This document shows, in pieces, positions 6,680 through 17,347 of a stretch of DNA of 64,000 nucleotides. The notes under the pieces are model-generated. The model worked only from the letters and a program-made list of their open reading frames with translations, was not told where the DNA came from and made no database searches. A program made the position numbers and the translations under genes. Every line of letters begins with the position of its first letter. The stretch's first letter is position 1. The DNA comes from Azotosporobacter soli (GTDB lineage Bacteria; Bacillota; Negativicutes; SG130), in assembly GCF_030542965.1 (NCBI RefSeq), contig NZ_JAUAOA010000004.1, positions 62,001 to 126,000 on the forward strand, in the 5' to 3' direction.

Positions 6680-8383
6680 TTAAAATTCATTGCGCGGATC
6701 GCTGGCGCCGTACATAATATGTTTTTGCTGATCGATCATGATCGCATTGACGTCGCCCATCGGCGCTTTAGGAGCGATCTTGTAACCCATCTCAGTCAGT
6801 TTGTTGATGACGTCCTGGTTCAGACCGTTCTTTTCGATGCGGATTTCATCCGGCAGCCACTGCATGTGGATGCGCGGCGCATCGACCGCTTCGCGGATGT
6901 TCATGTCAAAATCGATCACATTGAGGATGACCTGCAGTACGGTGGTGATGATCCGGGAGCCGCCGGGGCTGCCGACGACCAAAACCAGCTGGCCGTCTTT
7001 GGTGACGATGGTCGGCGACATCGAACTGAGCGGACGTTTGTACGGCGCGATTGCGTTGGCATCGCCGCCGACCAGACCGTATAAGTTAGGGACGCCAGCC
7101 TTAATCGAGAAGTCATCCATCTCGTTGTTTAGCAAAAATCCCGCACCGGCGATCGCTGCGGCGCTGCCGTAATAGTCATTGATCGTATAGGTGACCGAAA
7201 CGGCGTTGCCCTGTTTGTCGACGACCGAATAGTGCGTGGTATTTGTGCCTTCATGAATCTGGGGATTGCCGGGGCGGACTTCGCTGGAAGGCGTTGCTTT
7301 GCCCTGTTCGATTTTAGCGCGGATTTCTGCCGCATAGCCTTTGGAGGTCAGTCCTTTGACGGGAACGTTGACGAAGTCCGGGTCGCCCATGAATTCGGAG
7401 CGGTCCGCATAGGCGCGGCGCATCGCTTCGGCGATGACGTTGACGGCGGCGGAGGAATTATGACCCATGGCTTTCAGGTCGTAACCCTCGAGGGTATTGA
7501 GCATTTGGATGATGTGCGTGCCGCCGGAGCTGGGCGGAGACATCGAGATGATCTGATAGCCGCGATAATCGCCTCGTACCGGTTCGCGCCAGATGGCCTT
7601 GTATTTGGCGAGGTCATCTTTGCTGATGATGCCGCCGTTGGCGGCCATGTCCGCGGCGATCCGGTCGGCGATTTCGCCTTTGTAAAAGGCGTCAGGACCG
7701 CCTGCGGCAATCGCGCGCAGCGTGCGGGCCAGGTCCTTTTGAATCAGGAGTTCGCCTTCTTTGTAGGTGGAACCGTCCGCTTTAAGGAAATAGCTGCGGC
7801 TGGAAGCGTACTGTTTCAGACGGGATGCATGCTCGACAAAGGTTTCCGCTTGCCGGGCACTGATTGCGAAGCCGTTTTCCGCGTAGGGGATTGACGGTTC
7901 GATCAGTTCTTTTAACGACTTGGTGCCGTAGCGCTGCAGGAGAGCGCTCATGCCGGCGACGGTGCCGGGAACGCCGGCGGCCAGGTATCCGTCGGTGCTG
8001 GCTTTCGGAACCGGGTTGCCGCTGGCATCGAGGTACATGTCGCGGCTTGCTTTGCCGGGAGCCATTTCACGAAAATCCAAAACGGCATCCTCACCGGATT
8101 TTAGATGAATCACGGCAAAGCCGCCGCCGCCGAGATTTCCGGCGACAGGGTGAACGACCGCCAACGCGTAGCCGACAGCCACCGCGGCATCAATCGCATT
8201 GCCGCCGTCTTGCAGGACCTTCATGCCGATTTCGTTGGCAATTTTTTGCGTGCTTAACACCATGCCATCCGTCCGTTTTTCCGGTCGGAATGATGCGGCC
8301 TCGACGATGCCGCCAAGCGGGCAGATCAGCGTCATGAGAATGGCAGCCAGACAGAGTAAGGAGACAATCTTGTTATGTTTCAA
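6680..8383 (-). CDS. ggt: Gamma-glutamyltransferase
   Basis: A periplasmic N-terminal nucleophile hydrolase that removes or transfers the gamma-glutamyl group of glutathione and related compounds. It is 567 residues from the TTG start, a normal length. It has a Sec signal. The autoprocessing site lies in GTNTTHYSVV, with the new N-terminal Thr at about residue 382. The small subunit carries the conserved GSPGGSRIITTV loop and RPLSSMSPT. The GTG at 8392 overlaps the GGGAGG box; TTG 8383 has correct spacing. A promoter (TTGGCA-16-TATACA) precedes it. The DUF155 gene follows closely. Confidence 0.95.
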   Translation of the reverse strand: MKHNKIVSLLCLAAILMTLICPLGGIVEAASFRPEKRTDGMVLSTQKIANEIGMKVLQDGGNAIDAAVAVGYALAVVHPVAGNLGGGGFAVIHLKSGEDAVLDFREMAPGKASRDMYLDASGNPVPKASTDGYLAAGVPGTVAGMSALLQRYGTKSLKELIEPSIPYAENGFAISARQAETFVEHASRLKQYASSRSYFLKADGSTYKEGELLIQKDLARTLRAIAAGGPDAFYKGEIADRIAADMAANGGIISKDDLAKYKAIWREPVRGDYRGYQIISMSPPSSGGTHIIQMLNTLEGYDLKAMGHNSSAAVNVIAEAMRRAYADRSEFMGDPDFVNVPVKGLTSKGYAAEIRAKIEQGKATPSSEVRPGNPQIHEGTNTTHYSVVDKQGNAVSVTYTINDYYGSAAAIAGAGFLLNNEMDDFSIKAGVPNLYGLVGGDANAIAPYKRPLSSMSPTIVTKDGQLVLVVGSPGGSRIITTVLQVILNVIDFDMNIREAVDAPRIHMQWLPDEIRIEKNGLNQDVINKLTEMGYKIAPKAPMGDVNAIMIDQQKHIMYGASDPRNEF

Positions 8384-8405
8384 TAAAAGCACCTCCCGTT
8401 ATTCT

Positions 8406-8433
8406 TGTATAAGAGCTTAGACTTTTTTGCCAA
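8406..8433 (-). promoter_or_regulatory. Promoter of ggt
   Basis: On the minus strand, -35 TTGGCA and -10 TATACA are separated by 16 nt and lie about 20-50 nt before the ggt start. Confidence 0.5.
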
Positions 8434-8509
8434 AATCCTCTAGCGGAAGCGACGTTGGCGTGATTATTTACGGCTGCGCCTGTCGGCGCTTGGAAAAGCG
8501 GTTTTAGCT

Positions 8510-9727
8510 TTATAATGCAGGAGGACTGTTTTTTCTTTGCAGACTTTCAATTTCGTTGGGGTGTGACGAAGGCAGGAACAGAATGGGGAGTGCGGCGCAG
8601 AAGGCGGCAAGGCCCATCAATGCGTAAATCCAGTTTATGCCGAAGCTTGCTGCGATGCAGCCGAAGAGTAACGGCGTAAGCATATTTGTGCTGCCACGGA
8701 AAAAAGTGTTGAGCGGAAAAATGTCATCATAAAGATGTTTTTCGCGAATGGACTCGCCTAGGATAGACTGGATTACAGGAACAGTTCCTTTGGTTACGAC
8801 CCCCAACAGCAGCGATGCGCCAATAATGATAAACAGTTGCGTGCTGACAAGCAGCAGCGTCAGCAAAAATAGCATCAACAATTCGGATAGGACAAATACT
8901 TTTCGCGTACCAAAGCGATCAACTAAACGTCCGCAAGCGATTTTGCCGAGTAAACAGCCGCAGGTGAAAGCCATGGCAAAGGTGCCGATGACTGTCGGGG
9001 CAATTCCCTTGGCGAAGAGAAGATAGGGCAGAAAGGTAAAGAGATGATCACTGGCAAATGCGTCGCAGATGCTGGCGCTTATGGGCAGTGCATGTTGACG
9101 GTTGCGTAAGAGCGAAAAAGCAGGGAGATGCTGATCTCTGTCCGTTGCTAAAAGGACGGGCGGTTTTTCCTGGTTTGCGCCGAGCAAGAAAAGAAAAACC
9201 GCGAACAGCAGCGCGACTATTCCATAGACCAGGCAAATGAAGCGCCAGCCAGCAAAGCCGAAGACCGGAATGGCGGCTATGAAGGCGGCTAATGAAGCAA
9301 GGGGGATGCGTCCAAGATCTCCGAGCGCGGTGAAATTTCCGATTGTTTGACCTAAAGTGCGGCGGGGCGTCGTTGCGCTAAGATGAGAAAAGGCAATGTT
9401 GTGAAAGGCGCAATAACCGGCAATTGCGATGATAAAACAAAAACCGGCGAGCTGAATTGATGCGGAAAAAGCGGCCAGAAAAAAACCGATGCCGTCGAGT
9501 AAAACGATGAGGCTTATCGCGCGGAACAAACTAAAATGACGCGAGAAAAACTTGCTGAACAGTCCGCAGAGTGTAGTGAATAAAATGGCAAGCGATACGG
9601 CAAAGCCCACTTCTTTTTCGCTGGCGGCGAAGGAGAGAGCGATGAAAGAAAGCAGCAAAGGAACGCTGTCGAACAGGCCGTCGATGAGGATGTGCGAGAC
9701 GTTGAGCAAAATGCGAGGGTATGACAT
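8510..9727 (-). CDS. MFS transporter (probable drug or metabolite exporter)
   Basis: A 12-helix major facilitator of 405 residues. It starts at ATG 9727 (MSYPRILLNVSHILIDGLF) behind the GGGAGGAA box; the longer frame runs through the promoter. The loop 8-9 signature GRLVDRFGTRKVF and the central break after about helix 6 (LLGANQEKPPVL...) are typical. It is divergent from a MocR-type regulator that shares its promoter region, so the transporter is the likely regulated target. The substrate is unknown; MocR partners often export or import amino acids or amines. Terminator evidence after it is weak (a GCGCC-GACA-GGCGC hairpin without a T run). Confidence 0.85.
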   Translation of the reverse strand: MSYPRILLNVSHILIDGLFDSVPLLLSFIALSFAASEKEVGFAVSLAILFTTLCGLFSKFFSRHFSLFRAISLIVLLDGIGFFLAAFSASIQLAGFCFIIAIAGYCAFHNIAFSHLSATTPRRTLGQTIGNFTALGDLGRIPLASLAAFIAAIPVFGFAGWRFICLVYGIVALLFAVFLFLLGANQEKPPVLLATDRDQHLPAFSLLRNRQHALPISASICDAFASDHLFTFLPYLLFAKGIAPTVIGTFAMAFTCGCLLGKIACGRLVDRFGTRKVFVLSELLMLFLLTLLLVSTQLFIIIGASLLLGVVTKGTVPVIQSILGESIREKHLYDDIFPLNTFFRGSTNMLTPLLFGCIAASFGINWIYALMGLAAFCAALPILFLPSSHPNEIESLQRKNSPPAL

Positions 9728-9764
9728 AGCGATTCCTCCCGGTGTATAAGTGTAAGCTGCATTC

Positions 9765-9793
9765 ATTATATCGTCGCAAGATGGCGGCAACAA
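9765..9793 (-). promoter_or_regulatory. Promoter of the MFS gene
   Basis: On the minus strand, TTGTTG and a perfect TATAAT box are separated by 17 nt, within the divergent region between the transporter and the MocR gene. Confidence 0.65.
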
Positions 9794-9799
9794 TTGTGG

Positions 9800-9825
9800 T
9801 ATACTCTAACTGTATCGATACAGTT
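9800..9825 (+). promoter_or_regulatory. Extended -10 box and 18-bp palindromic operator of the MocR gene
   Basis: TGG-TATACT (extended -10, hexamer 9800-9805) is followed directly by the perfect palindrome AACTGTATCGATACAGTT (9808-9825), which covers the probable transcription start. It lies 13 nt before the regulator ATG and about 15 nt from the -35 of the divergent MFS promoter. This placement fits autorepression and control of the transporter. Confidence 0.65.
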
Positions 9826-9838
9826 GGAGGGCGTAGGA

Positions 9839-11191
9839 ATGAAGCGAGCATATGAAGAAATCGCTGCGGATATCGAGAAAAGAATACAGGAGGGGCGATT
9901 TAAGCCGCGCGAACGACTACCTTCGGTACGTGAATTGTGCGCTTCCTACCGGGTGAGTCAAAATACCGCAGTAAAAGCGTATGAGGTTTTGAAAAGCAAG
10001 CACTTGGTCTATTCCGTTCCGCAAAGCGGTTGCTATGTTCTCGAAAATAGGCGCAAGCTGGAACAAACGGAGCGCAGTGTAATTGATTTTGCCAGAGGCA
10101 ATCCGATGCTGGGGAAAATACATACGCCCGACATAAAGCACTGTCTTGACCGGGCGATTGATATTTGCAATGAAAATAGTGCGGAGTGGCATGAAATGTA
10201 CGGCGCACCGTCGCTGCGCAAATTGCTGCCCAAATATCTTGCTGATTTTCAAGTCTTTGCGTCGCCGGAAAACATCTTTGTTAATCTTGGCGTGCAGCAA
10301 GCGCTGACTCTTTTAACGCATATGTCGTTTCCAAATCAAAAGGATACTATATTGATTGAGCAGCCTACTTTTCGTTATTACAACTGGTTTTTAAAAAGCA
10401 GCGGCGTCAAAGTAATCGGCATACAGCGTGACGCAAGCGGCATTGACATCGCTACGTTGGAGCGACTGTTCAAAAATGAAAAGATCAAGTTTTTTTATAC
10501 GGTTCCCAACAGTCATAATCCGCTGGGGACTTGCTACTCAAGGGAGCAGCGCAAGGCAATCGCACGTCTGGCGGAAAAATATGACGTATATATTGTAGAA
10601 GACGATTATTTTGGTGATATCCGCTTTGGCAATCACGGCGACGCCCTATATTCGTATGGCGACCAGCAGCACCATATTTATCTGAAGAGCTTTATTAAAA
10701 TAATACCCTGGTTGCGAATCGGGATTACGGTTATTCCGACGCAACTGCTGTCCATATTTTCGGAACAGGTGAAGCAGTCCTATTTTCACTCGTACTTTTC
10801 ACCGTCGTTGGTCTCACAAGCGACCTTGGAAATCTATATCCGCAGCAACGTGTTGAAAAAGCATATTGCCGCAATGAAAAAAGAACTGGCGCCCAGGTTA
10901 AACTGTCTTAGACTTCGTTTTGCGGAAGCTAAGCAATATGGCGCAGCGTGGATTGGCGGAGAAAGCGGCTTTTATTCGTATTTAGAACTGCCGGAGAACG
11001 TGAATGAAAAGCAGTTTGTCGAAATCTTGAAGAAGCGAGACGTCATAGTGACGCCTGGGAACGAATGCTTTATCGAAAATTGCCGACAGCAAAGCGGCAT
11101 TCGTCTCAGCGTGGCACGGACAACAGCGGAAGAAATTGACAGGGGCATTTCCATTTTGTATGAGGAGCTTCGTACTTGGAAAACGAAGTGA
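9839..11191 (+). CDS. MocR-type GntR regulator with aminotransferase domain
   Basis: A 450-residue fusion. An N-terminal GntR winged helix covers about residues 1-75 (MKRAYEEIAADIEKRIQEG, LPSVRELCASYRVSQNTAVKAYEVL). A class-I aminotransferase-fold effector domain follows, with the PLP-site features NSHNPLG, YIVEDDYFGDIRFG and the Schiff-base Lys in SFIK (usually SFSK). Such proteins sense an amine or amino acid through PLP and switch a divergent operon. The start is ATG 9839 behind GGAGGG; the longer frame overlaps the palindrome. It is divergent from the MFS gene and is a paralogue of the regulator at 29842. Confidence 0.93.
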   Translation: MKRAYEEIAADIEKRIQEGRFKPRERLPSVRELCASYRVSQNTAVKAYEVLKSKHLVYSVPQSGCYVLENRRKLEQTERSVIDFARGNPMLGKIHTPDIKHCLDRAIDICNENSAEWHEMYGAPSLRKLLPKYLADFQVFASPENIFVNLGVQQALTLLTHMSFPNQKDTILIEQPTFRYYNWFLKSSGVKVIGIQRDASGIDIATLERLFKNEKIKFFYTVPNSHNPLGTCYSREQRKAIARLAEKYDVYIVEDDYFGDIRFGNHGDALYSYGDQQHHIYLKSFIKIIPWLRIGITVIPTQLLSIFSEQVKQSYFHSYFSPSLVSQATLEIYIRSNVLKKHIAAMKKELAPRLNCLRLRFAEAKQYGAAWIGGESGFYSYLELPENVNEKQFVEILKKRDVIVTPGNECFIENCRQQSGIRLSVARTTAEEIDRGISILYEELRTWKTK

Positions 11192-11268
11192 TGTTTTTTG
11201 AACTGAAGTATTTGGATGAATCAAAACCGTCCTAATACGGAAAGAAATGTCACCCACGCGTGACGAGA

Positions 11269-11297
11269 TTATGAACACTTCTTGCTAGAAATATAAT
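11269..11297 (+). promoter_or_regulatory. Possible promoter of the amino-acid ABC operon
   Basis: TTATGA-17-TATAAT. The -10 is perfect and the -35 poor. It would give a leader of about 110 nt. Two small inverted repeats lie just upstream: CCGT-CCTAAT-ACGG (11227-11240) and GTCAC-CCACGC-GTGAC (11249-11264). Confidence 0.35.
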
Positions 11298-11411
11298 TGA
11301 CTTGATAAGAAGGAAGTCCTGGCTCAAAAAGAGAAAGTGTCGGTACGTGCATGACGCCGTGTTAGCATCCGGCTCATGGTTTCAAAAGTGACATAACCAA
11401 GGAGTAAAACG

Positions 11412-12959
11412 ATGAAGAAAAAGACAGGGTTGCTGTTGTTGCTGCTAATGTTTTTATTGACGCTAGTGGGCTGCGGCGCGCCAAAGGACGAGGCGACGCA
11501 GCGAAGCGGCGCGAAACTGGCGACGCTGGAAGACTTGAAGGACAAGCGCATCGGCATCTTGCTCGGTTCCGTTCATGATGCATACGTTGCCAAGACGTTT
11601 CCCGACGCGACGGTGCTTCAATATAAGAGTCCGTCCGATCTGGTGCTGGCGGTAAAGACCGGCAAGGTGGACGCCGCCTTTTATACGCATGAGACGCTGC
11701 TCGAAATATTGCGCGGCGATGACGAGATCGGCTTCCTGGCGGAACGGATCTTTTCGGTGCCGATCGGCATGGGCTTTAAGAAGGGCAATGACGAATTGCG
11801 CGGCCAGTTCGATCTCTTCTTGCGGCAACTGAAAGAAAGCGGCGTCTTTGACGATATGGTCAGGCGCTGGATACTGGATGGAACGACGCAGATGCCGGAC
11901 ATTGAGAATCCGAAGACGAACGGCGTCTTGACGGTCGGCATCGTAAGCGACAAGGGCATGCCTTTTACGATCGTCAAAGACAACCGGATGATCGGTTTTG
12001 ACGTGGAGATGGCGCAGCGTTTTGCCGCCTATCTCGGCAAAGAACTCAAACTTTCCGATATGGAGTTCGGCGCGCTGATTCCTGCGGTCTCCGGCAATAA
12101 GATCGACCAGATCACCAGCACGCTGATGATCACGCAAGAGCGCAAAAAGCAGATCGATTTTTCCGAACCGTACTACGAACTGGGCGCAAGCGCCTTTGCG
12201 TTGAAGAAAAATCTTGCGCAGGCGCAAGGCGAAACGAATGCGGCAGTCGCAGTAAGCGGCTGGCAGTCTCTTGCCGACAGTTTTCACAACAATATCATCC
12301 GTGAAAAACGATATCTGCTGCTGCTCGACGGCCTGCAGACGACGCTTGTGCTGTCGGTTAGCTCTTCTTTTTTCGGCACGGTGCTCGGTGCGCTGATCTG
12401 CTTTATGCGCATGCGGAAAAACAGACTTGTCTGCAGCAGTGCCAAAGTCTATATCGCGCTGATGCGCGGAACACCGGTGCTGGTGCTTCTGATGCTGATC
12501 TTTTACGTCGCGTTTGCAAGCGTTGATGTCAATCCGCTTATCGCGGCGGTGCTGGCGTTCGCGTTGAATTTCGCCGCCTATGTCTCGGAGATGTTCCGCA
12601 CGTCGATCGAAAGCGTGGACAAAGGCCAGACGGAAGCGGGGCTGGCGGGCGGCTTTTCAAGACTGCAGACGTTCGTCTACATCGTCATGCCGCAGGCGCT
12701 GCGCCAGGTGATGCCGGTCTATAAGGGCGAGTTCATCTCGCTTGTGAAGATGACTTCGGTCGTCGGTTATATCGCGCTGCAGGATCTGACGAAAGCGAGC
12801 GATATCATCCGCAGCCGCACGTTCGACGCATTCTTCCCGATCGTCATGGTGGCGGTGCTCTACTTTATCGTCTCCTGGTCGCTGGCGCTGGCGCTCGATT
12901 ATGCCGGAGCGAAGCTTGACCCGAAACAACAACGCAAGACAAGGCGGGACGCATTATGA
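11412..12959 (+). CDS. Amino-acid ABC transporter: lipoprotein substrate-binding/permease fusion
   Basis: A 515-residue fusion. Signal and lipobox LVGC give a lipid-anchored N-terminus. Residues ~35-155 ([42 protein letters not shown]) look like the second lobe and C-terminal part of a family-3 binding protein. Residues ~165-270 ([54 protein letters not shown]) look like its first lobe. The two halves are therefore in swapped order. Residues ~295-505 are a HisM/GlnP-type permease with five or so helices and the EAA-like loop [25 protein letters not shown] precedes ATG. The stop overlaps the ATG of the ATPase gene (ATGA), which gives coupled translation. The substrate is probably a polar amino acid. 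Confidence 0.9.
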
Positions 12960-14041
12960 TCAGAATCGAACATCTTTGCAAACGCTTCGATGGACAGACC
13001 GTGCTGAAAGACGTGAACGCAGTCATCGAGAAGGGGGAGATCATCTCCATCATCGGGCCGTCCGGCACTGGCAAGAGCACGCTGCTGCGCTGCCTGAATC
13101 TGCTGGAAGTCCCGGATGGCGGCGCGATCTTTATTGACGGGACGCCGCTGCTCGCCAAAACGACCGACGTCGCGCGCGTGCGGCAAAAAATGGGCATGGT
13201 GTTCCAGTCGTTCAACCTGTACGCGCATCTTTCGGTGCTGGATAACCTCACGCTCGGGCCGATCAAGCTGCTGAAAAAAAGCAAAGCTGCAGCGCAAGAA
13301 AGAGCGCTGCAGCTTTTAGAGCTGGTGGGACTTGGCGAAAAAGCGGACAGTTTTCCCGATGAGCTTTCCGGCGGACAGAAGCAGCGCGTGGCGATCGCAC
13401 GCTGTCTGGCGATGGAGCCGGAAGTGCTGCTCTTTGACGAGCCGACGTCCGCACTCGACCCGACGATGGTGAGCGAGGTTCTGGCGGTCATCCGGCGTCT
13501 GGCGAAAGAGGGCATGACGATGCTGATCGTCACGCACGAGATGGAATTTGCCCGCAATATTTCAAGCCGCGTTCTTTATATGGATGAAGGCGTCATTTAT
13601 GAGCAGGGAACGGCGCAGCAAATTTTTGACGCGCCGGAAAAGGAAAAAACAAAATCATTTATCAACCGGATACGCAGCTTTCAGTATTCTATCAGCAGCG
13701 CGCAGTACGATCTGTATGCGATGAATGCTGAGATCGAAAGCTTCTGCGAAAAACATCTGCTGGGCAAAGAGGTTTGCCGCAATGCGCTCTTGGTCGTTGA
13801 AGAAGCGTTAAGCCTGCAGCAGGATTTCGCGGACATCCTGCTCAGTCTTGCCTATTCGGAAAAAAGCGGCAGCCTGGAATGCCGAATCGAAAGCAAAGGC
13901 GCGCCGTTCGCGCTTTTGCAAAAAGGAATACGTTCGGATGACCTCGCGCTGACGCTGTTGGAAAAACTCTGCGAAACGCTGCAATATCAGTATGAAGACG
14001 GCAAGAATGTGCTGCGGGCGGTGCTGAAGGGGCGGCAGTGA
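12956..14041 (+). CDS. Amino-acid ABC transporter ATP-binding protein with C-terminal extension
   Basis: A GlnQ/HisP-type ATPase of 361 residues; ~240 is usual. Walker [10 protein letters not shown] (~residues 35-43), Q-loop FQSFN, signature LSGGQKQR, Walker [14 protein letters not shown] and the switch His in VTHE are all present. The remaining ~115 residues (from about 250) form an extra alpha/beta domain with [38 protein letters not shown] and NVLRAVLKG. Its layout resembles an RsbW-type GHKL ATPase fold, but the usual Asn and Asp-X-Gly are not where expected. This is inference. Its ATG overlaps the TGA of the permease gene, so the two are made together. Confidence 0.93.
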
Positions 14042-14086
14042 GAGTTTTCGAGTGCTTGCCTAATGAAAGTATGCGGAGGATTGAGA

Positions 14087-14785
14087 ATGAAAGAATTATC
14101 GCAGCGTACAGTTGCAATAACGGCAGGGATTGCATTTTTTCTGATGACGATAGCGGCCCTCTTTGCATACGGATTTGCGCTCGGCCATCTTATTGCGCCG
14201 GGCGATGCAACAGCGACAGTCAATCAAATCATGGCTTCGCCAATGCTCCTTCGTTTAACGGTTTGCAGTTTTCTGATCGTGCTTCTTTGTGATGTCGTAG
14301 TGGCGTGGGCGCTTTATCTTTTTCTCAGGCCGGTCAATGAGAATTTGGCGTTGCTGATGGCCTGGCTTCGATTGATGTATGCAGCGATGTTAGGAATTGC
14401 TATGTTCAATTTGCTTAAAGTGCTGCTGATTGTAAGCGATGCCGACTACTTGACGCTATTTACCAGCAAAGCGCTGCAGGCGCAGGTTTTTTTATTTCTT
14501 AAAGCGTTTATGATGGAATGGTCTGCCGGCTTACTTATTTTCGGCGTGCATCTTTTTTTACTCGGTTATTTAGTTCTTAAAGCGGGCTACATTCCTAAAA
14601 TTTTAGGCGGCTTATTGATAATAGGCGCTTTCTGTTATGTAACAACTAATTTTGCGAATCTACTTTGGTCTGACTATGAACATTACAAAGCAACGCTTGA
14701 ATTGCTGCTTAGCCTGCCGATGGCGCTCGGAGAATTGTCCTTTGCATTTTGGCTTTTGTTTAAAGGCGGTAAAGCGGTGGCTTGA
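14087..14785 (+). CDS. DUF4386 family membrane protein
   Basis: A 232-residue protein with about six hydrophobic helices and the DUF4386 pattern: SQRTVAITAGIAFFLMTI at the N-terminus, a central LLMAWLRLMYAAMLG segment, and LGYLVLKAGYIPKILGGLL near the last third. No catalytic residues are evident and the function of the family is unknown. The start is ATG 14087 behind GCGGAGGA. It follows the ABC ATPase by 45 nt on the same strand and could be read through from it; it ends at a strong terminator. Confidence 0.8.
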   Translation: MKELSQRTVAITAGIAFFLMTIAALFAYGFALGHLIAPGDATATVNQIMASPMLLRLTVCSFLIVLLCDVVVAWALYLFLRPVNENLALLMAWLRLMYAAMLGIAMFNLLKVLLIVSDADYLTLFTSKALQAQVFLFLKAFMMEWSAGLLIFGVHLFLLGYLVLKAGYIPKILGGLLIIGAFCYVTTNFANLLWSDYEHYKATLELLLSLPMALGELSFAFWLLFKGGKAVA

Positions 14786-14802
14786 TAAGATGCCTGTGAT
14801 GA

Positions 14803-14850
14803 AAAAGCGGTTATAGTCCCTGGAAAATCAGGACTATAACCGCTTTTTTT
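14803..14850. terminator. Terminator between convergent genes
   Basis: A 17-bp perfect stem, AAAAGCGGTTATAGTCC / GGACTATAACCGCTTTT, with T run. It serves the DUF4386 gene and possibly the opposing GNAT gene. The stem core resembles those at 4137 and 15964. Confidence 0.92.
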
Positions 14851-14863
14851 CGGAGATCATTAG

Positions 14864-15370
14864 TTACCTGACTCTACGCAATACTTTTTCATAGCAGTAG
14901 AAAGGCTTCTCTTTACTTGGGAATTTCATTTCGCCAATCCGTTGATAGCCGCATTTTACGAAGAGGGCATTCATCTTTATATTGATGGAATAGGTATCGG
15001 TTTTTAAATAGCGCATATTATTTTCAAGTGCACGTTCCTCGGCAAAGTTCATTAGCTCCAGACCCACTCCACTTCTACGGCGAGCCGGGGCCACCGCCAT
15101 ACGGTGGAGAATCATAGCCGTCTCCTGCAGCGACCAAGGTAAGCTGTTATATTCGGCTGACTCGATTGTATTAATGCAGGCAAAGCCGACTATCTTTTCT
15201 TCGCGTTCGCTTAGATAAAGATCACCGCGTTGCATATCATGCAAGAAGTCTTTCTCTTGGGGATAATGTTCATCCCACTGCGTGTTGCCGTACGAATGCA
15301 TTTCAACAATGGTCTCTTCGATGATTTTCATGACATTCATTATATCTGCAGAAACGGCTTTTCGGATCAT
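14864..15370 (-). CDS. GNAT family N-acetyltransferase
   Basis: A 168-residue acetyl-CoA-dependent acyltransferase fold. N-terminal MIRKAVSADIMNVMKIIEET is the alpha1 region. VGFACINTIES is beta4. The acetyl-CoA pyrophosphate loop is seen as LHRMAVAPARRRSGVGLELMNFAEE (Arg-X-X-Gly-X-Gly type). A C-terminal FVKCGYQRIGEMKF gives beta6-7. SD GAGG precedes the ATG. It is a single gene, convergent with DUF4386. The acceptor substrate is unknown; a free amine or amino acid is possible. Confidence 0.9.
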   Translation of the reverse strand: MIRKAVSADIMNVMKIIEETIVEMHSYGNTQWDEHYPQEKDFLHDMQRGDLYLSEREEKIVGFACINTIESAEYNSLPWSLQETAMILHRMAVAPARRRSGVGLELMNFAEERALENNMRYLKTDTYSINIKMNALFVKCGYQRIGEMKFPSKEKPFYCYEKVLRRVR

Positions 15371-15438
15371 AAGAACACCTCTATATATTTAGGATACCCT
15401 TGTCGTCAATGTGATAGGGGCGATTAAGATGCAACGGC

Positions 15439-15810
15439 TTAGTCAACTTGCGCCATACCGAACAAGAGGCCGGAAGCCATCGGAATCAGCCAGATGGCCC
15501 AGACGATGACGCTGAATTTGTGAAAGCTGAGTTGCAGCCTATGGTTCTTTGAGGTCAGCACCCAGGTGGCCCAGATCGTGTGAACGATCATCAAGAGCAG
15601 TGCGATTATACCGGTGATGCCGTGAAAGTTTGCCTGGATGCCGCCGGCGATCTTGCCCATCGTTGTCGTGCCGATTGTGTCACAGACAAAGCCGAGCCAA
15701 AACAACGCGACATGCCAGTGCCTTAATATTCGTTGCGCCTTTTCCGCCATTACGGCGATGGTATAAAACAGTCCGGCCAGACTGATAAAGATAATGGCCG
15801 TCATCAACAT
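15439..15810 (-). CDS. HsmA-type membrane protein (TIGR03987 family)
   Basis: A 123-residue protein with four hydrophobic helices (MLMTAIIFISLAGLFYTIAV, HWHVALFWLGFVCDTIGT, GITGIIALLLMIVHTIWATW, FSVIVWAIWLIPMASGLLFG). The Trp/His-rich cores HWHVALFWLGF and HKFSVIVWAIW are those of the TIGR03987 family. The function of the family is not known. ATG 15810 is preceded by AAAGGAG at a good distance; the upstream TTG at 15816 is too close. It is a single gene. Confidence 0.8.
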   Translation of the reverse strand: MLMTAIIFISLAGLFYTIAVMAEKAQRILRHWHVALFWLGFVCDTIGTTTMGKIAGGIQANFHGITGIIALLLMIVHTIWATWVLTSKNHRLQLSFHKFSVIVWAIWLIPMASGLLFGMAQVD

Positions 15811-15963
15811 AAGCAAATCTCCTTTACGCTATTCTCTGCTGTCAGTATAGCCGGAAAAAAGCGGGCTGTCCATTTGCATAAAAGAGAACGAACGTTGAAA
15901 CGAAAAGGAAGTCAGGAATGGAAATGTTGCAACGCAGAAAAGAAAGGCATAGCAATGAACGAC

Positions 15964-15998
15964 GAAAAGCGGTCATAATTCGGATATGACCGCTTTTC
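15964..15998. terminator. Terminator of the GlsB-type gene
   Basis: Perfect 13-bp stem AAAAGCGGTCATA / TATGACCGCTTTT. It lies 25 nt beyond the 3' end of the minus-strand GlsB-type gene. Confidence 0.8.
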
Positions 15999-16022
15999 AT
16001 AAGAAGGCAATATTGCCTGAAG

Positions 16023-16250
16023 TTAGAGAAAACGTATGACCGCCAACATTGCAATCGCGCCGAGGGTTGCCATGATTACTTCGCCAATGGCGCCATAAGC
16101 AGTTAAACCGAAAAAGGTAAAAAGGTAACTGCCGATGAAAGAGCCGGCTATGCCTACGAGCAAATCACCGATTAAGCCAAAACCGCTGCCGCGCATGATG
16201 TTGCCGGCTAACCAGCCGGAGAGAATGCCTATTAGTATGGGCCAAAGCAT
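16023..16250 (-). CDS. GlsB/YeaQ/YmgE family stress-response membrane protein
   Basis: A 75-residue transglycosylase-associated-type protein with three hydrophobic, Gly-rich helices. It shows the family motifs GWLAGNIMRGSGFGLIGDLLVGIAGSFIG (two segments) and a C-terminal ATLGAIAMLAVIRFL. It sits in the inner membrane. Members are often induced under stress but have no defined biochemical role. The start is ATG 16250 behind GAGGAGG; the GTG three codons earlier overlaps that box. Confidence 0.9.
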   Translation of the reverse strand: MLWPILIGILSGWLAGNIMRGSGFGLIGDLLVGIAGSFIGSYLFTFFGLTAYGAIGEVIMATLGAIAMLAVIRFL

Positions 16251-16271
16251 GATACACACCTCCTCTTTAAA

Positions 16272-16309
16272 AATGAACCCAAGAAAGTTTGCACCTTCTT
16301 GGGTTCATT
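16272..16309 (-). terminator. Terminator of the 307-residue secreted-protein gene
   Basis: Perfect 14-bp stem AATGAACCCAAGAA / TTCTTGGGTTCATT. Read on the minus strand it ends in TTTTT. It is about 120 nt after the stop of the gene at 16427. Confidence 0.8.
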
Positions 16310-16426
16310 ACTAAAATATACAGGCCAAATGGCTTTTCAATAAAATGCTCACCTTATGTCGTTCTGGTTTGGCGTTTAATTTGTCCCATCCATATTCATT
16401 AAGCCAGACTTGCGGTGATGGACGTT

Positions 16427-17347
16427 CTACTTGCTTGCGTCAATGATGGAAATAGAGCGCAAAACATCGCCGTCAAAACTGAGCTTCTTCGAACCGTAAA
16501 TCCAGACGGAATTATTTTCTTCCATGGAAACAGGCTTGCCCCAGCTGAGCATAATTTGTCCTTTGTTCATGCCTTCGACGACGCTCGCATTTTCGATTTT
16601 GGTCCATAATTCACGCGACCAACCGAGGCTGATGCGAGGATCTTCGGTAAATAGGTAACTTTTCCATGCCGGATTTTTGCTCCAAGAGGCAACCGGCGTA
16701 TTGGTCCAACTGTAGTTTATCGGTAAGATCGCTTTTTCATTATTTACGGAAACGATCAACCAAATCGGTTCTTGCGATTGGATGCCTGGATAGACATCAA
16801 TTACAGTGACTGGCGAACCGATTTTAATCGCTACCGGCGCTACTGGCGTTTCGCCGGTGCTGGACCAACCGGATAGCTCTCTAAATTTAGGATAGACGGT
16901 CTTGTTTAAAAACTGGTTACGGGCATCCGACAAGTCAGAGGTTAGCAGCAAAGAGTCTAATTGCTGACGCATGCTGCGGCCGACTAATTTTTCGCCGGTC
17001 TCATTTACCGTCATATATACCATCGCTTCATTCACGGTATTGCCCGCTGGAAAATTTGCGATTTCAGTAACGGTGACTTGTTTTTTTACGTAAGCGGAAT
17101 AGGGAAGGCGGACGGATTGATCGCCGTCAAAACCTTGTGTGGCTTGATCAATTTTAAAGATTCCATAACCGGCTGCTTGTTTATCTGCAGGCAGTTCACG
17201 AAATGTGAAAGTGTGCCCGACCCATTGTTCGATTGTAAGATTGACCGGAGCGGTTTTAGCGGTGTCTTCTGCCGAAACCGTAGCGCCGGTGCCTAATCCG
17301 ATGAGTAGACTTAAAACAAATAAAATGCGTATGCTGAATTGTTGCAT
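16427..17347 (-). CDS. Secreted protein of unknown function
   Basis: Not recognised. 306 residues from ATG 17347, which follows AGGAGGG at six bases; the longest frame adds 13 unlikely residues. An N-terminal signal peptide (MQQFSIRILFVLSLLIGLGTG...VSAED) sends it to the periplasm or outside. The mature part is soluble, beta-rich in appearance and Trp-rich (EQWVGHTFTFRELP, PIWLIVSVNNEKAILP, LSWGKPVSMEENNSVWIYG). The last stretch resembles the short SmpA/BamE-like theme in which a protein reports that a call returns GKP followed by a Trp-Tyr strand, but this is weak. It is single, with its own terminator. Confidence 0.75.
   Translation of the reverse strand: MQQFSIRILFVLSLLIGLGTGATVSAEDTAKTAPVNLTIEQWVGHTFTFRELPADKQAAGYGIFKIDQATQGFDGDQSVRLPYSAYVKKQVTVTEIANFPAGNTVNEAMVYMTVNETGEKLVGRSMRQQLDSLLLTSDLSDARNQFLNKTVYPKFRELSGWSSTGETPVAPVAIKIGSPVTVIDVYPGIQSQEPIWLIVSVNNEKAILPINYSWTNTPVASWSKNPAWKSYLFTEDPRISLGWSRELWTKIENASVVEGMNKGQIMLSWGKPVSMEENNSVWIYGSKKLSFDGDVLRSISIIDASK

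Follow-up and report, generated by a model that had tools for sequence, protein, structure and literature searches.

The receptor–permease open reading frame at positions 11412–12959 (+) of the window, that is, of the whole 64,000-nucleotide stretch of Azotosporobacter soli DNA that was analyzed, encodes a protein of 515 amino acids (P0001). Taking the evidence as a whole, we consider it likely that P0001 is a lipid-anchored receptor–permease fusion carrying a single, circularly permuted family-3 receptor that folds within its own chain. The family-3 receptor fold is used throughout the bacteria and as a scaffold for sensors, and the domains with which glutamate receptors bind their ligands are related to it; the order of the chain in these receptors appears to have been rewired repeatedly in nature with the fold kept.

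Domain organization and lobe order of P0001

P0001 began with a lipoprotein signal peptide with the lipobox LVGC (Cys21; 11412–11474, on the + strand like all parts given below), which was read from the translation and modeled by AlphaFold2 (AF2) as a helix at residues 4–19, followed by a low-confidence linker at residues 18–29. Residues 34–155 (11511–11876) corresponded to lobe 2 and the C-terminal helices of a family-3 receptor, ordinarily its second half, as indicated by phmmer, SBP_bac_3, and the lobe 2 HMM in relatives. The gap between the two phmmer matches, residues 156–170 (11877–11921), represented a linker from the old C-terminus to the old N-terminus; it had no regular secondary structure in the AF2 model, yet its pLDDT was approximately 95. 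Lobe 1, ordinarily the first half, came next at residues 171–267 (11922–12212; phmmer, and SBP_bac_3 at 179–268) and finished in a hinge strand at residues 255–264 of the model. A predicted membrane tether (12213–12311), consisting of a flexible linker (pLDDT 59 at residues 271–280) and a helix at residues 283–297, led to a polar amino acid-type ABC permease domain at residues 301–509 (12312–12938). The permease domain matched Pfam BPD_transp_1 at residues 323–492 and scored 78.5 bits against HEQRo_perm_3TM (TIGR01726; curated cut-off, 42.2), and its model aligned with chain D of 4yms, a permease without a fused receptor, with a TM-score of 0.80 on the solved chain (Foldseek) and 32% identity. 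The lipobox and the BPD_transp_1 match bore out the description of P0001 as a lipid-anchored receptor–permease fusion in an initial annotation of this DNA. As in GlnPQ-type fusions, the receptor was N-terminal to the permease in one chain and the ATPase was separate.

In a single phmmer match between P0001 and the solved AncQR (4zv1; E-value 5.3e-31), residues 33–154 aligned with AncQR 106–231 and residues 171–266 with AncQR 10–104, and Pfam SBP_bac_3 (PF00497) matched P0001 in two stretches with 95.4 bits (gathering cut-off, 26.4). Both searches agreed with the initial annotation, in which lobe 2 and the C-terminal tail preceded lobe 1 and the permease came last. Its statement that ordinary receptors have the reverse order also held: in the genome that encodes P0001, the genes of ordinary receptors had the matches to its two lobes in the reverse order, and every ordinary receptor tested in relatives with the lobe HMMs had lobe 1 followed by lobe 2, mostly at a spacing of <10 residues and at about 40 residues in L050 and L052. 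The contiguous order of lobe 1, lobe 2, and C-terminal helices was thus reversed in P0001 and was recovered only after rotation at the hinge. When P0001 was cut between residues 162 and 163 and residue 270 was joined to residue 34, the rotated receptor gave one contiguous match to AncQR (9–229 to 10–231, E-value 1e-35), compared with two pieces (2.5e-32) in the native order. Coverage of the SBP_bac_3 profile was a single stretch of 6–130 of 132 positions for the rotated sequence and 6–93 for the native one, and the best local score against one of the genome's ordinary receptors rose from 154 to 248. P0001 was broken where the chain first crosses the hinge, with FALKK on one side and ATLEDL on the other, a position that leaves the fold complete. 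Since rotation at the hinge restored one contiguous full-length match, the receptor of P0001, as judged from its alignments, is a clean circular permutation of a family-3 receptor. Neither two complete receptors nor a segment 27–155 unrelated to family 3, the outcomes that the initial annotation had named as refuting, appeared.

GlnPQ of Lactococcus lactis is an SBD1-SBD2-TMD fusion with four receptor sites per transporter (PMC8025302; PDB 6h30). Like P0001, it has family-3 receptors fused N-terminally to a homologous permease, a separate ATPase, and short linkers, those of GlnPQ being 19 and 14 residues long. However, the receptor domains of GlnPQ are whole and have the normal lobe order, whereas that of P0001 is permuted, and the four sites of GlnPQ differ from the one to four units per chain of the permuted class, in which the lipid and permease tethers start from the hinge. 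The lobes, hinge strands, C-terminal helices, and carboxylate-binding arginine of GlnBP and AncQR (SBP_bac_3, cluster F) aligned end to end with P0001 once it was rotated; these receptors differed from P0001 in the order of the halves and in having the amino-group aspartate in place of Thr92. TpMglB-2 (Tp0684) of Treponema pallidum is a naturally permuted, lipid-anchored ABC receptor of two lobes with measured glucose binding, for which its authors proposed the class "Type Ic"/Cluster Bc and a possible link between permutation and anchoring (PMC4990184). It resembles P0001 in being circularly permuted when compared with the ordinary members of its family and in its lipid anchor, but it belongs to the type I (cluster B) sugar receptors and has another fold topology and breakpoint, P0001 matching family 3 only, and unlike the permuted family-3 class it has neither a permease fusion nor arrays. 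Searches of the open-access literature on ABC/SpoIIE/HATPase fusions and on permuted family-3 receptors yielded TpMglB-2 as the only precedent, and no description of a permuted family-3 receptor or of such an importer class was found there. Permuted family-3 proteins surely already sit unremarked in sequence databases. Engineered permutations in iGluSnFR were considered as a precedent and dropped; the passages considered describe no permuted receptor half.

Distribution, forms, and origin of the permuted unit

The initial annotation had supposed that the architecture might not be unique to this strain, and the homologue search confirmed this, identifying the permuted unit by sequence in at least six phyla. 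The reversed order was found in many independent genomes at 33–75% identity. That it might be an assembly or frameshift artefact is extremely improbable, because independent genomes share the order, which is thus neither chance nor assembly error. The unit was about 238 amino acids long (about 236–244 in most units). A contig search gave 34 loci, and the full-length ones had the form (lobe 2-lobe 1)n-permease (n = 1–4), including loci of Methylobacter (L039 and L041), Chromatiaceae (L047, L050, L053, and L055), Geobacteraceae (L038), Bacteroidales (L042 and L049), Armatimonadota (L046 and L060), and Planctomycetota (L057–L059 and L061). P0001 carries one permuted unit only, and four tandem units preceded one permease in L039, L050, and L052. 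In the window's own phylum, a match at 1e-50 was found in 9 of 249 genomes, five of which (G000, G101, G191, G261, and G299) had a fused permuted protein. Of 199 genomes, 9 had matches to a profile of permuted units that extended over both lobes; some of these matches were stand-alone permuted lipoproteins of 272–318 amino acids (L126 and L128–L131), with the permease gene separate and the ATPase gene usually separate. Another stand-alone permuted receptor was L093 of genome G299, and in the planctomycete loci L062 and L063 such receptors adjoined permeases without a receptor. The forms thus go beyond those in the initial annotation, with as many as four units in arrays, receptors that stand alone, and a second breakpoint, described below. 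A tblastn search of plasmids at 1e-30 gave no match.

Some loci departed from these forms. L088 (3112–5874, −) encoded a permuted receptor, permease, ATPase, and HATPase-like tail in one polypeptide of 921 amino acids. L095 (5694–8222, −) had a permuted receptor, a permease, and a second permuted receptor in one frame of 843 amino acids, with an apparent additional membrane helix ahead of the second receptor. In L090 (4043–5768), the permease was without a receptor and N-terminally short, and the ATPase and tail were in separate frames; this is possibly a decayed operon. The C-terminus of the permease of L041 (7060–7261; Methylobacter marinus A45) continued in another frame, which is either a sequencing error or a real frameshift.

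In a permease tree of 83 rows, all 32 fused proteins fell in one clade of 37 rows (100/95), which also contained the planctomycete stand-alone set, L132, and L090. L093 was placed outside this clade with L091, L092, and L094, loci that have ordinary-order receptors, and L128–L131 and L126/L127 occupied two further well-supported places. Besides the hinge breakpoint, a second one inside lobe 2 was found in the stand-alone receptor L127 (2796–3617, −). The N-terminus of L127 lacked the first strand-helix of lobe 2, and its C-terminal tail had that element; the tail scored 77 against lobe 2 of L126 (shuffled maximum, 49). L126, the sister of L127, had the first strand-helix of lobe 2 at its N-terminus. 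The permease tree and the two different breakpoints suggest approximately three independent permutations, a count that is inexact: the starred branches require two or more changes in the stand-alone label, and the tree has long branches. Probably, on each of these roughly three occasions in the family, a receptor was duplicated in tandem and the duplicated pair then lost its outer lobes, and differing trimming of the duplicated receptor would explain both L126 and L127. L051 retained a mere remnant of a second lobe 2, about 30 residues in length, ahead of its permease, as if a unit had been lost there. Since related stand-alone, fused, and arrayed forms coexist, and two of the relatives differ in their breakpoints, permutation by duplication is directly testable.

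Pairing of the lobes and proposed importer

The initial annotation had offered two readings of the reversed order, permutation of one domain or exchange of lobes between chains. The evidence favours an intramolecular permuted receptor, because the receptor was confidently predicted by itself, the lobes co-varied within their own unit, and stand-alone forms exist. If lobes were exchanged, neighbouring chains of the permease dimer would pair lobe 2 of one with lobe 1 of the other, and an array would consist of whole normal-order receptors between an unpaired lobe 2 at its start and an unpaired lobe 1 at its end. Array sequences can be read in this way, and TmArgBP, a family-3 receptor, is reported to be a domain-swapped dimer (PMC4022495). 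Stand-alone permuted receptors, however, need no permease dimer, and AlphaFold2, run with 43 units, predicted one of them, L093, as one confident domain with lobe 2 first (pLDDT 90.6, pTM 0.82). The inter-lobe linker, at about 15 residues, is also short for such an exchange. In the AF2 model of P0001, residues 31–270 averaged >84 per ten-residue block, mostly >92; the pTM of the full model was only 0.67. Foldseek aligns in chain order only, so that just halves of a permuted model can be aligned; its best SBD match was the tandem GlnPQ receptor 6h30 with an rmsd of 19, lobe 2 of SBD1 being joined with lobe 1 of SBD2 as lobe exchange would have it, and TM-scores to single receptors were 0.3–0.5, values that are expected for a permutation. 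The closed permuted fold is therefore a prediction that rests on confidence scores. Lobe distances were also correlated across the 24 array units that have a preceding unit. The correlation of lobe 2 with its own following lobe 1 was 0.92 and that with the preceding lobe 1 was 0.58, with a bootstrap difference between the two pairings of 0.13–0.62; successive lobe 1s likewise correlated at 0.58, so the normal-order pairing was no better than that of one lobe 1 with the one before it. This test shows the unit of evolution, not the contact itself. Together, these results make lobe exchange quite improbable.

With an intramolecular permuted receptor, each chain would fold one two-lobed domain, with the short linker bridging the old C- and N-termini and the new termini at the first inter-lobe hinge crossing; this follows from the prediction and the comparative evidence. 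Two P0001 chains would then assemble with two copies of the ATPase into a type I importer that has two receptor domains. Both tethers would start from the hinge, the lipid anchor being reached over about 13 residues and the permease over about 30, among them helix 283–297, and a receptor held in this way could open and close its lobes while staying over the permease. The fused form thus raises the question of how an importer works with its receptor held at the hinge. Relatives with four units would have eight receptor domains if the permease is homodimeric as in GlnPQ, and the arrays raise the question of the purpose of more than four receptor domains per transporter.

Ligand site, partner ATPase, and neighbouring phosphatase genes

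The carboxylate-binding arginine was conserved in P0001: Arg244 aligned with the TEER sequence of AncQR (T-x-E-R motif), and this position was kept in all tabulated units but one. In the alignment with AncQR, the lobe 2 aspartate that binds the alpha-amino group was replaced by Thr92, and the AncQR threonine position was Met239. The ligand is probably, as a guess from these residues, a carboxylate-bearing solute and not necessarily a standard alpha-amino acid; with the contacts changed at Thr92 and Met239, the receptor domain of P0001 might even bind no solute. An Rfam scan of window positions 8000–16500 found no riboswitch, and neither a riboswitch nor a neighbouring pathway gene indicated a ligand.

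The partner ATPase (P0002; 12956–14041, +; ABC_tran E-value 1.1e-35), whose start overlaps the end of the receptor–permease gene by 4 bases, was closest to cystine/ectoine/glutamine-type ATPases. Its last 121 amino acids (13676–14038) resembled HATPase_c_2 with an E-value of 0.0037, below the gathering score, and a tail of this kind was conserved in most fused relatives across phyla. The tail has no N-box asparagine, which active kinases of the HATPase family require, and therefore probably represents a pseudo-kinase or a regulatory domain. Pfam identified PDC-HAMP-SpoIIE membrane phosphatases adjoining the permuted importer in L039 (974–2974), L047 (1998–4007), and L049 (10324–12207). The upstream ORFs of L041 (3002–5005) and L051 (2993–4966), whose first residues were very similar to those of the L039 phosphatase, probably also encode such phosphatases.

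The conserved tail and the phosphatase genes of L039, L047, and L049 would also suit a fused receptor that is mainly a sensor or regulator and does not deliver solute. In arrays, the outer units would capture solute and the permease-proximal unit would only dock or report, the signal perhaps passing through the ATPase tail and the neighbouring SpoIIE phosphatases. Consistent with this, the amino-group aspartate was kept in 14 of 29 permease-proximal units and in 24 of 32 other units (Fisher p = 0.04, uncorrected for relatedness). However, this p value is weak, the missing N-box asparagine speaks against this reading, and no SpoIIE gene was recognized among the listed nearby ORFs of the window, which were scanned in part. 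P0001, moreover, has a single unit, so that either this unit delivers solute or nothing does. A mainly sensory role is thus unlikely, and a permuted importer receptor remains our preferred reading. A broader proposal, which we put forward tentatively as possible rather than probable, is that permutation is a recurrent route in family 3, with about three origins and two breakpoints, and that one clade forms an importer class in which hinge-tethered arrays give a transporter as many as eight receptor domains and the pseudo-HATPase tail links the ATPase to SpoIIE-type phosphatase signalling. Among the neighbouring genes, an NMT1-type binding protein was present in L049, ORFs of L039 and L051 began similarly, and L039 also had a separate HATPase_c_2 protein.
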